Positions 1,044 to 5,990 of a stretch of DNA of 64,000 nt are shown one piece after another. The notes beneath the pieces were generated by a model. It was given only the letters and a program-made list of their open reading frames with translations, was not told the origin of the DNA and made no database searches. The number at the start of each line of letters is the position of its first letter. Position 1 is the stretch's first letter. Position numbers and translations under genes: made by a program. This DNA comes from Balnearium lithotrophicum (GTDB lineage Bacteria; Aquificota; Aquificia; Desulfurobacteriales; Desulfurobacteriaceae): positions 1-64,000 of the forward strand of contig NZ_FXTM01000002.1 of assembly GCF_900182585.1 (NCBI RefSeq), given 5' to 3'.

Positions 1044-1644
1044 GCCTTAGGCACTTCTTCACGAGGGTTCTCTTGGTCAACTTTACAATTTTCTTGTCCC
1101 AGTAGAAGGAGTACTTTTTCAGAAGGGACTCTGCCCTCTTCCTGCACTTTTTAGCCTTTGGAGAGTTTCTCTCAACAATTTTAAGAAACTCCTCCTCCAA
1201 ATCTGCTAAAGACTTTTCAATTTCAAAGAGATTCGGATAGTTTTTAAGGGAAATTATCTTATCAACGATTGAAAAATCGGAGATGTTTAATTCGATTAAA
1301 ACTGACTTAACGATTCTGGCCAACTTTTCAATTTTATTGTAGGGTAAATTATCCTCTTTAAAAGTTTTTCTTGCCTCCTCTGCCTCCTCTTTAGCCTCCT
1401 TTTTGTACCAGTTCTTCACAAATTCCCTTATGTCCTGAAGTTTAAAGTTGGGGGAGATTTTACCTTGGGACAAACCCTCAGAAATCGCAAAGAGAACATA
1501 ATGGGGCTCAATCCCTATCATGTACCAGTCCCTGATTACGGCAAAATCGTCACTACTTCCTCCCCACTGATAGGTATCAAAGTGGTCCTTAATGCACTCC
1601 CATACCTCTTTGGCGTAATCCTCTACACTTTTAATGTCATCCAA
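1009..1644 (-). CDS. Unknown protein between glnE and the kinase
   Basis: A 211-residue protein with no family I can name. It is soluble, charged and largely helical, with no signal or membrane segment. The N-terminal half contains DWYMIGIEPHYVLFAISEG, faintly like helical domains of replication-accessory proteins, but this is not enough for a call. The middle is a lysine/glutamate-rich coiled-coil-like stretch (about 80-100), and the C-terminus is strongly basic (KKCRKRAESLLKKY, then KKIVKLTKRTLVKKCLRR), which suggests nucleic-acid contact. It overlaps the end of glnE by 22 bp and the kinase start by 35 bp, so it is almost certainly translated as part of the same operon. Confidence 0.6.
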   Translation of the reverse strand: MDDIKSVEDYAKEVWECIKDHFDTYQWGGSSDDFAVIRDWYMIGIEPHYVLFAISEGLSQGKISPNFKLQDIREFVKNWYKKEAKEEAEEARKTFKEDNLPYNKIEKLARIVKSVLIELNISDFSIVDKIISLKNYPNLFEIEKSLADLEEEFLKIVERNSPKAKKCRKRAESLLKKYSFYWDKKIVKLTKRTLVKKCLRRVYGIPEFSIV

Positions 1645-4277
1645 TTTACAAACTCCCTGTAAAAGGAACGTATCTCTTTCCTCAATTCATTAATTTTATC
1701 ACCTAAAGAGGTTATCTCACTGAAAAGCCTTTTCTCAGTTTCGGCCTGCCTGATTAGTCGGTAAAGGTCCTCACCCTTAGAGAACCTCTCTTCCTCCTGT
1801 GACAGCGCTTTTAGTGATTCAAGGGTGTGCCTCAGCCATTTCTTTGAGTAGAGCTGATAGATGTAGGAGACAAACTCTAAGTCGACAACTCCACCGGGTG
1901 CGTACTTTAAAGTAGAAGATGGAAACTCCCTTTCAAGTCTTTCCCTCATAGATAGTATCTCATTTAAAACTTCCCTGTTGAAGGGTTTCTTAAAGAGGAA
2001 TTCCCTGACAATTCTCTCCGCCCTTTCCCTGCCGTCTCCGACCAAAAACCTGAATCGGGTAAATGCAAGCCTCTCCCAGGTCCTCGCCGTCTCTTTCAGG
2101 TACTTTTCCAAGTAGGACAGCGTAAAAACCAGCTCTCCCTTTTCTCCAAAAGGCCTTAGCCTCGTATCAACCTCATATCCTAACTCTTCCAAGGACTTTA
2201 CAAAATCAACAGCCCTTTCCGTTTCGTCTTCCACCTTTTCCTTGGATATAAACAGAAGGTCGAGGTCAGAACCAACGTTCATCTCCCTGCTTCCACACTT
2301 TCCCAAGGAGGATACGGCAAATTTAGGTTTGAGTTTTTCATACCTCCTTTTCAAGCAGAAATCGCAAATAGAGGTTAATTCGCTGAAAAACTCCTCTATC
2401 CTTGTTCTGCCCAACCTCTTTCTAAGGAGAGAAACGATTTCAAAGGTATTTTTCAAAAGTTGAAGGTTCTGGAGCTCCTTAAAAAATTCCTCCATTGAAC
2501 TCTCGTTTACGGGAGATTCAATAAGTTCAGGTGAGAAGATGTGCTCTAAAACCTCTGGGGATTTTCTGAACCTCTTTAGGAAGAAGTCCTTTGTGGAAAG
2601 GAGGTAGATGAGAAGTTTCAGGAGATTTTCGTGGGAGAGGACGGAGAAGAAGAAAACCTGTCCTTCCTCCGTTTCCAGAAAGAGGAGTAAGTTCTTGATT
2701 GCAGTTTTTGATACAGGGGCCTCGTAGATTAGTTTAAGGAGTTTCGTTCCAAGAACGTCCAACTTTCTCTTCTTTTCAACGGATAAACTCTTTGAGTCAA
2801 AAAGTGCATCTATGAACCTTTTAATCTCTTCTGGTTCTTTAAATCCAAACCTTTCAAGTTCCTCAACTGTATAGGAGGAAAGAGGTTTAAGCTCCTTAGT
2901 TGGGAAAAACCTGTTGAAGTAGTAATTAACTCTCTTCATTACGGAGGAGAGCTCCCTCAAAAACTCATCCCTGCTTTTAAATCCCAACTTTTTAGAAAGT
3001 TCCTCGGCCTCCTCACTCTCGGGGTGAAAGGTTTGGGTCTGTCTGAAGTTTGTTACCTGGAGCATATGCTCGGCTCTCCTTAAGAAGATGTAGCTATTTA
3101 GGAGCTCTTCATACTCTCGTCTGTTAAGAAATCCCCAGTTTAAAAGTTTCTTTAAAGCTACTACAGTATTTTTGGACCTTATCTGAGGGTACTTTCCTCC
3201 GTATATGACCTGAAAGGCCTGAACGATAAACTCAATCTCCCTTATTCCCCCCTTTCCGAGTTTTAGGTCAATCTTTCCTCCTTTTTTTGAAACCTTGGCC
3301 CTTATCATCTCCTTTATTCTGAGAACCTCCTCAATTAAGGAAAGGTCAATGTACTTTCTGTAGACAAATAGGTTTGCAAGCTCTAAAAACTCTAAACCGA
3401 CTCCCCCTATGTCCCCTGCAGAAGGTCTTGCCTTCAGCAGTGCTATCCTCTCCCAGGGTCTTGCAACTGCCGTATAGTACTGCTCAAGAGCTTCTATGTC
3501 GTTTGTCAGAGGTCCCATACTGCCGTTTGGCCTCAGCCTTGTATCAACAACAAAGCAGATTCCCTCCTTTGTTCTTTCGGATAGGAGTTCCGTTATCTCC
3601 CTTGAAAGGAGAGTGAAAAAGTCGTGGTTCTGCAGTTTCCCGTATGTTCCACCCTCTGTCTCTCCGTACCTACTTCCGTAAACGTAGATAACGTCAACGT
3701 CGGAGGAGTAGTTGAGCTCAAATCCCCCTGCCTTTCCCATATCAACAACGATGAAATTAGAGCTTGGCTTTCCGTACTTTTTTACTAAGTTCCTGTATGC
3801 AAAATCGTAGGCAGCTTTAATACAGGCGTCGTGAATGAGCGTCGTATCCCTCACAAGCTCTAAGAAGGGAGCCAAATGGAGGATGTCCCTTAAAACTACC
3901 CTTGCTATCTGAAGGTTTTTATAGACCCTTAGGGAGTCTATAAATTTCCTTCTATCCTGTGTGCTTATCTCAATCCTAAAGTCAGATGGAAGAAAAGTTT
4001 CCCTGTAAATTGACCTTAACTCCTCTATAAGCTCAACGTGGTTAATTAAAAATTCCCCTAAAAACTGGGAGTAGGAAAAGAGTAGTAACAGGTGAAAACC
4101 AAAATCACCGTGAAGGTAGTCTGAAAACTGACAGTTCAGTCTGTTGCTTAATTTTTCAATGAAGAGAAGAGCTCTCCTCGGATTTGGAAATTCCTCCTGT
4201 CGTTCTTCAACAGCTCTAACCAAATTCAGCCACTCTGGATTGAGTGAACACTTCAATTTTTCCAGTAGAAAATTCAA
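1623..4277 (-). CDS. glnE: Bifunctional glutamine synthetase adenylyltransferase/adenylyl-removing enzyme
   Basis: GlnE adds AMP to, and removes it from, glutamine synthetase in response to nitrogen status (PII signalling). At 884 residues it is near the usual 940 or so. Both nucleotidyltransferase halves are visible. The N-terminal adenylyl-removing domain has GGFELNYSSDVDV (Asp pair about 193-195) and KGGIREIEF (about 342). The C-terminal adenylyl-transfer domain has SSLGKCGSREMNVGSDLDLLF (Asp pair about 671-673) and a later PGGVVDLEF. The start ATG overlaps the stop of the psiE-like gene by 4 bp (ATGA), so the two are translationally coupled. It lies downstream of rpoN in a nitrogen-regulation operon. 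Confidence 0.95.
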   Translation of the reverse strand: MNFLLEKLKCSLNPEWLNLVRAVEERQEEFPNPRRALLFIEKLSNRLNCQFSDYLHGDFGFHLLLLFSYSQFLGEFLINHVELIEELRSIYRETFLPSDFRIEISTQDRRKFIDSLRVYKNLQIARVVLRDILHLAPFLELVRDTTLIHDACIKAAYDFAYRNLVKKYGKPSSNFIVVDMGKAGGFELNYSSDVDVIYVYGSRYGETEGGTYGKLQNHDFFTLLSREITELLSERTKEGICFVVDTRLRPNGSMGPLTNDIEALEQYYTAVARPWERIALLKARPSAGDIGGVGLEFLELANLFVYRKYIDLSLIEEVLRIKEMIRAKVSKKGGKIDLKLGKGGIREIEFIVQAFQVIYGGKYPQIRSKNTVVALKKLLNWGFLNRREYEELLNSYIFLRRAEHMLQVTNFRQTQTFHPESEEAEELSKKLGFKSRDEFLRELSSVMKRVNYYFNRFFPTKELKPLSSYTVEELERFGFKEPEEIKRFIDALFDSKSLSVEKKRKLDVLGTKLLKLIYEAPVSKTAIKNLLLFLETEEGQVFFFSVLSHENLLKLLIYLLSTKDFFLKRFRKSPEVLEHIFSPELIESPVNESSMEEFFKELQNLQLLKNTFEIVSLLRKRLGRTRIEEFFSELTSICDFCLKRRYEKLKPKFAVSSLGKCGSREMNVGSDLDLLFISKEKVEDETERAVDFVKSLEELGYEVDTRLRPFGEKGELVFTLSYLEKYLKETARTWERLAFTRFRFLVGDGRERAERIVREFLFKKPFNREVLNEILSMRERLEREFPSSTLKYAPGGVVDLEFVSYIYQLYSKKWLRHTLESLKALSQEEERFSKGEDLYRLIRQAETEKRLFSEITSLGDKINELRKEIRSFYREFVNWMTLKV

Positions 4278-4729
4278 TCTCCCCTCCTAATTCTTCCAGT
4301 TACTTTGTAGAAGTAGAAAATCAAAATAAAGAAGAGACCGGATGCTATTGTTAAAACAAAAATTAAAAATGAATTCTCGGGGACAGGTGAGAGGAGTATG
4401 AGCTTCCTCGTAATTACTATGAATCCTATTTCAAGCAGTGAAAGAACGTAGTGGATTCTCTTCTTGTAGAACATTGCAGATATGAAGTCAATTACTATAA
4501 GGACGAAGAGGGCATCCGTTAGAAACTCCCTCATCTCCTCAAAGGTTAGGAGGTAATGGGACGAGGAGAGGAAGTTAAACAGCTTTATTATTAAACTAAA
4601 AAGACTAAAAAGTAAGTACAGGATGAGAATCGAAATGAATACGAATCTTGAAATCTGAACCAGTTTTTGAAGAAGTCTATAGCTCTTTGAACTTATTAAC
4701 TCCATTTTATCAGGAGTTTCTATTTTCAT
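4274..4729 (-). CDS. PsiE-like small membrane protein
   Basis: A 151-residue inner-membrane protein with four hydrophobic segments: around FVFISILILYLLFSLF, LTDALFVLIVIDFIS, VLSLLEIGFIVITR and FLIFVLTIASGLFFILIFY. The spacing and the charged KKRIHYVLSLLEIGFIVITRKLIL segment match the phosphate-starvation-inducible PsiE family, whose function is unknown. I chose the ATG at 4727-4729 because an AGGAG lies six bases upstream; an ATG 13 codons earlier has no such site and would overlap rpoN. The gene begins 13 bp after the rpoN stop and is coupled to glnE. Confidence 0.7.
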   Translation of the reverse strand: MKIETPDKMELISSKSYRLLQKLVQISRFVFISILILYLLFSLFSLIIKLFNFLSSSHYLLTFEEMREFLTDALFVLIVIDFISAMFYKKRIHYVLSLLEIGFIVITRKLILLSPVPENSFLIFVLTIASGLFFILIFYFYKVTGRIRRGD

Positions 4730-4742
4730 CTTAACTCCTCTT

Positions 4743-5990
4743 TTATCTAATCTTTCTCCCAAAAGCACCAGGAATTCCTAAGCTTTCCCTATACTTTGCA
4801 ACTGTTCTCCTTGCAATTTTAAACCCTCTTTCCTTTAGAATCCGAGAGATTTTTTCGTCACTTAAGGGTTTCCTCTTATCCTCATTTTCAATGATTTCCC
4901 TTATCATCTGTTTTATTTCGTCCGTTGTTTGTTCTTTGTTCCCCTTTGGAAAGAAGAATTTAAGGGGATAGATTCCAAAAGGAGTTTCAACAAACTTTCT
5001 ACTTACGCACCTGCTTATCGTTGATTCGTGGAGGGATACCCTTTCGGAAACTTCTGATAAGGTTAAGGGTTTTAAGCTCTTTCCGTCAAAGAGGAACTCC
5101 TTCTGTTTTTCAAAAATGGCCTTAATTACCTTCTCTAAGGTTTCCTTCCTCTGTTCAATTGCTCTCTTTAAAGAAAGAGCTCTCTGGTACTTTTCAAGGA
5201 TGAATTTCCTAAGCTCTTTGTTACTTGCATGCTTAAGGTAGAACTTGTTTATCCTGAAATTAAAGTTTCTGAAACTAAAGACCTCCAACTTTACCTCTCC
5301 CTTTTCCAACCATACCCTTGCCTCAGGTCTTACAGGAGTGTTTAACACTGCACTGTCAAAGGGTCTTATGTCACACCTTCTAAAGTACGAAAGGAAATTC
5401 TCGTACTCCTTTTCACTTAACCCCGTTTTTAACTTAAAAGTTGAAGGTGAAGAGAGAAGCTCGAAGTATGAAAGGGCATCAATAAACTTAGTCGGAGCTC
5501 CCATCTCCTCAAACTGAACCTGAAGGAGCTCCTTGACAGAGTAAGAACCACAACCAACAGGATTTAAACGTTTTACCCTGTCTCGAATACGTTTTACAGT
5601 TCCAATATCAAGATTGAACTTCTCTGAAATTTCCTTCTCTGCAACTAAAAGAAGTCCCTTTCTATCTAAGTTGTTAACAATAAAAAGAGCTACATCTTTC
5701 TCTACTCCATCAAATTCGAGATTTATTTGTTCCTTTAAAATTTCTGAAATTGATTCAGGTCCCTTAAATTCACTATCAAAATTCTCTTCATAGTAGTAAG
5801 TTTTAGAGTTTTCAAGAACAAACGAAACGTTGTCCTCTACTTCAACAAGTGGGTTTGCCTCCAGTTCGCTAATAAGAAAGTTCTCTAAGTCTAAAGAGGA
5901 TAGCTAAAGAACCTCAAGGCTTAGAGAAACCGAAGGTGTCAGTTTAAGCTGTTGTGAAACATTTTGTGAAAGTTCTAAGCTTTTCTTCAT
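4743..5990 (-). pseudogene. rpoN: RNA polymerase sigma-54 factor, interrupted by an in-frame TAG at codon 29
   Basis: Read as one frame from ATG 5988-5990 to the stop at 4743, this is a 415-codon sigma-54. Region I reads LSQNVSQQLKLTPSVSLSLE, then VL-stop-LSSLDLENFLISELEANPLVE. The core-binding and HTH regions are continuous (RVKRLNPVGCGSYSVKELL), and the C-terminus carries the RpoN box ARRTVAKYRE. The only disruption is TAG at 5904-5906, where the family has a glutamine (the LLQ of region I); CAG to TAG is a single transition. No ATG occurs between the stop and codon 163 (5504), so simple reinitiation would give only a C-terminal piece without region I. It heads the operon with psiE-like and glnE. 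It may be a real mutation, a sequence error or a read-through codon. Confidence 0.88.

Follow-up and report, generated by a model that had tools for sequence, protein, structure and literature searches.

The window, the whole 64-kb stretch of DNA that was analysed, contains on its minus strand a reading frame for the sigma factor sigma-54 (rpoN) that extends over 415 sense positions from 5990 to 4743 and closes with a TAA. A sigma-54 gene would be expected to be uninterrupted, and this frame contains a single internal stop, a TAG at codon 29 (5904-5906). Retranslation returned the same continuous 415-codon frame and the same stop that the initial annotation had described, and its remark that nothing else in the gene is disrupted also stands, with the TAG as the lone internal stop and matches to all three sigma-54 domains. 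The features of the locus are the following.

4743-5990, minus strand: rpoN (sigma-54) reading frame, broken by one TAG (translation; Pfam Sigma54_AID, CBD and DBD over cut-off)
5904-5906, minus strand: in-frame amber TAG, codon 29, in place of a family-invariant glutamine of region I (translation; alignment of 18 relatives; Gln27 of E. coli sigma-54)
5838-5972, minus strand: region I, the activator-interacting domain, cut by the amber (PF00309, E 1.9e-11, one TAG inside)
5502-5504, minus strand: codon 163, the first ATG, GTG or TTG downstream of the amber, not early enough for rescue (sequence scan)
5238-5771, minus strand: core-binding domain, downstream of the amber (PF04963, residues 74-251, converted to window coordinates)
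4752-5207, minus strand: DNA-binding domain, intact, with the RpoN box ARRTVAKYRE (PF04552, residues 262-413, converted likewise)
4274-4729, minus strand: gene for a small membrane protein between rpoN and glnE, weakly PsiE-like (PF06146, E 2.7e-4, below cut-off)
1623-4277, minus strand: glnE, glutamine synthetase adenylyltransferase, downstream in the same putative operon (PF03710/PF08335)

With an X substituted for the stop, the three domains follow each other in the expected order (activator-interacting, residues 7-51; core-binding, 74-251; DNA-binding, 262-413), all over the Pfam cut-off, and the RpoN box is present in the C-terminal part. The gene is single copy in a search of its own genome (1.73 Mb, 49 contigs, 99.91% complete), with one TAG inside the copy, so the second complete rpoN that had been named as a refutation is absent from this draft. 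The interrupted frame is also the only gap of more than 200 bp between open reading frames of at least 60 amino acids in the window, and the break therefore does not belong to a wider pattern of broken frames in the assembly.

Translation would end after 28 codons, leaving a 28-residue peptide. A protein begun at codon 163 would lack region I together with roughly half of the core-binding domain, and we rejected rescue by a downstream start, as only ATT, ATA and CTG codons, with no evident ribosome-binding site, are found before that point. Loss of region I from sigma-54 is known to give a form that bypasses the activator (PMC4551910), and the amber likewise falls in region I, but here nothing after it should be translated, and a bypass form is not expected, since the first possible restart would cost the protein about half of its core-binding domain as well. 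Without a usable restart, no sigma-54 would be made except by trace readthrough.

The neighbourhood of rpoN and glnE is kept across the family, with glnE beside rpoN in G002 and G004 to G014. In several relatives (e.g., G006 and G009) both genes directly adjoin, unlike here, where they are separated by the small membrane protein gene, which starts at an ATG at 4729 after GAGGAG and has an alternative GTG at 4768. The amber could exert polarity on this gene and on glnE.

The amber position in related genomes

The comparison of rpoN with related genomes, which had been proposed as a check, shows the gene to be intact in all family relatives where it is present in full. At the column of the amber, glutamine is encoded in every one of the 18 family members whose sequence could be read, by CAG in 13 and CAA in 5, and the five congeners all have CAG, so that one C-to-T transition (CAG to TAG) is enough to give the stop. 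In E. coli sigma-54 (chain 9mse_M) the corresponding residue is Gln27, directly after Leu25-Leu26 in the Leu/Gln-rich region I. The conserved glutamine described by the initial annotation is thus real for the family and for E. coli; it is not universal, as the other families of the class do not keep it (LLML, LTLN and others are found at this place). Family homologs (e.g., G007, G013, and G002) share with this rpoN the same domains, the rpoN-glnE neighbourhood and 44 to 57% identity, while being uninterrupted and having glutamine at the amber position.

Across the 61 genomes searched, 57 had an rpoN match, and a TAG inside the gene was found only in this one. Interruptions flagged in four distant relatives (G029, G035, G040, and G053) were discarded, being TGA or TAA codons past the true C terminus that were included by alignment overrun. 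A scan of genome contigs for rpoN matched only a distant SAR86 gene and no sister strain, and the literature search returned nothing on sigma-54 in the Desulfurobacteriaceae or their phylum.

Activators and promoters of the sigma-54 regulon

The remaining parts of the sigma-54 circuit, both of which had been put forward as checks, are present in the genome. We identified three uninterrupted enhancer-binding proteins with the GAFTGA motif, on contigs C7, C19, and C3. The strict -24/-12 pattern TTGGCAYGN4TTGCW gave two exact sites, whereas the same pattern run backward as a control gave no matches in 22 genomes. One site lies 36 bases before glnB, which is followed by amtB. The second precedes a lipoprotein gene by 38 bases, and this gene is itself located after an activator and a histidine kinase. 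The nitrogen link proposed earlier from the presence of glnE in the operon is retained, although the promoter of glnB-amtB supports it better than glnE does. Relatives have the same kind of site before glnB (G007), before genes of the ammonium-transporter type, named by sequence resemblance rather than by profile search (G002, G009, and G013), and before similar lipoprotein genes (G001 and G005). The regulon, intact here and conserved in the family, was thus being maintained by selection up to the very recent past.

Between the enhancer-binding protein/histidine kinase pair and the promoter of the lipoprotein gene, immediately upstream of the latter, there are two near-identical palindromes of the TTCGGAAATTTTTCCGAA type (around 1516-1620 of stretch L068, contig C3, minus strand). 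They are a good candidate for a pair of activator-binding sites.

Use of TAG and tRNA complement

TAG is an ordinary stop in this genome, as had been noted from the ends of other genes in the window: it terminates 16 of the 62 window genes of at least 120 amino acids, and RF1-type and RF2-type proteins are both present and intact. The suggested search for an amber-suppressing tRNA gave 40 tRNA matches, none of them with a CUA anticodon; the list from this draft does not have some of the tRNAs that are usual in rRNA operons, which leaves a slight chance that a suppressor gene lies in a repeat that did not assemble. One gene for tRNA-Gln(UUG) was found. For PylS, there were only weak matches below the threshold, of the same kind as those given by control genomes. 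Taken together, stop usage, release factors, tRNAs and PylS rule out a genetic recoding of TAG, which had already been judged unlikely.

Two other tRNAs deserve mention. One, apparently tRNA-Arg(CCT) from the reading of its anticodon, has no 5' part (positions 95-152 of C24:1-400, stretch L104), and the start of C24 resembles the end of a transposase/integrase open reading frame (HQSLGYKTPVEKFEEYIKKL); the tRNA looks to have been cut by an insertion element or by a join made in assembly. A selenocysteine tRNA is also present (112-206 of stretch L105, contig C10), so that TGA can be recoded in this genome, with no bearing on TAG.

Origin of the stop codon

The most probable explanation, which we hold with some reserve, is that a fresh nonsense mutation (CAG to TAG) has inactivated rpoN, present in one copy, in the strain that was sequenced. 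The stop, the single copy, the intact remainder of the gene and of the regulon and the lack of any sign of recoding are observed, while a genuine base, the loss of sigma-54 activity and the conditions that permit this loss are inferred. The three options left by the initial annotation (a recent change, an error or a tolerated one) hold up. The absence of any further stop in rpoN indicates that the break is recent: 3.4 to 5.7% of random substitutions in this sequence make a stop, and 386 further codons without one limit neutral divergence since inactivation to less than about 0.04 to 0.07 per site (95%). After such a mutation, the promoters of glnB-amtB and other sigma-54 targets would be left intact, as would the three activators, but without holoenzyme, and the genes for ammonium uptake would be deprived of their sigma-54 promoter, a loss that may be tolerable when ammonium is plentiful, just as laboratory culture of E. 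coli K-12 tolerates rpoS(Am). The closest precedent is the amber at codon 33 of rpoS in some K-12 strains, where an alternative sigma factor gene likewise has a lone early TAG, is intact in the rest of its sequence and is dispensable in culture (PMC2700278). In contrast, K-12 has a known strain history and known amber suppressor strains, while here the factor is sigma-54 and the search gave no suppressor tRNA.

Should the TAG be genuine, the strain would be a naturally occurring sigma-54 null, in a thermophilic family whose other members retain rpoN, caught before its activators and promoters decayed, and it would allow a direct test of the role of sigma-54 in ammonium uptake via glnB-amtB and with respect to the lipoprotein beside the activator/kinase pair. 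An error, on the other hand, would be a warning to users of this genome as a reference. Neither outcome represents a new mechanism, and the mutation, if real, is of an ordinary kind.

An error of sequencing or assembly, or a minority variant that entered the consensus, in a strain whose rpoN is normal, is the strongest competitor, although we consider it rather unlikely. It would produce exactly the present picture, a single aberrant base in a 49-contig draft with the sigma-54 circuit otherwise intact and conserved, and the intact regulon is equally expected if the true sequence had no stop. Against it, the assembly is not visibly error-prone, with no other interrupted gene in the 64-kb window and a genome estimated as 99.91% complete and 0.27% contaminated, and a wrong base would seldom, a priori, happen to create a stop within a conserved regulatory gene.

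Less probable still is that the stop is read through, with the near-cognate tRNA-Gln(UUG) inserting glutamine at low frequency and a little wild-type protein sufficing for a factor in low demand. The stop falls exactly at a glutamine codon, the required tRNA gene is there, the regulon and the gene are conserved, and suppressor-free E. coli inserts glutamine at UAG and UAA at a low level, according to the mention of Nilsson and Ryden-Aulin (2003) in PMC8954436. The coincidence with a glutamine codon is nevertheless weak, since any C-to-T change that makes a TAG hits a CAG codon, and this explanation also has to face the lack of a CUA anticodon among the 40 tRNAs, intact release factors, the dependence of 16 of 62 window genes on the TAG stop, and the absence of the TAG from all relatives. 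A stronger version, in which the amber is real and functional and insertion of glutamine at codon 29 keeps sigma-54 at a low dose, with no dedicated suppressor tRNA and a working regulon, appears quite improbable.

As for the rate of evolution, RpoN has changed at 11 of the 99 columns that are invariant in 10 relatives, the highest count of the set (the others reach at most 6 of 94), and its branch measures 0.60; the amber was entered as glutamine and is not among the 11. A fast rate is likewise seen here for glnE, the control gene (15 of 300 invariant columns, branch 0.42), and the other genomes have similar differences in rate between genes. The RpoN counts are therefore suggestive of selection relaxed before the stop but inseparable from the generally faster rate of this genome. 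An older degeneration, with sigma-54 long under relaxed selection in the lineage and the amber as a late step, would account for these RpoN values but is very improbable, given that glnE is fast too, that rpoN has no further stop or frameshift, and that the promoters and enhancer-binding proteins are all intact.
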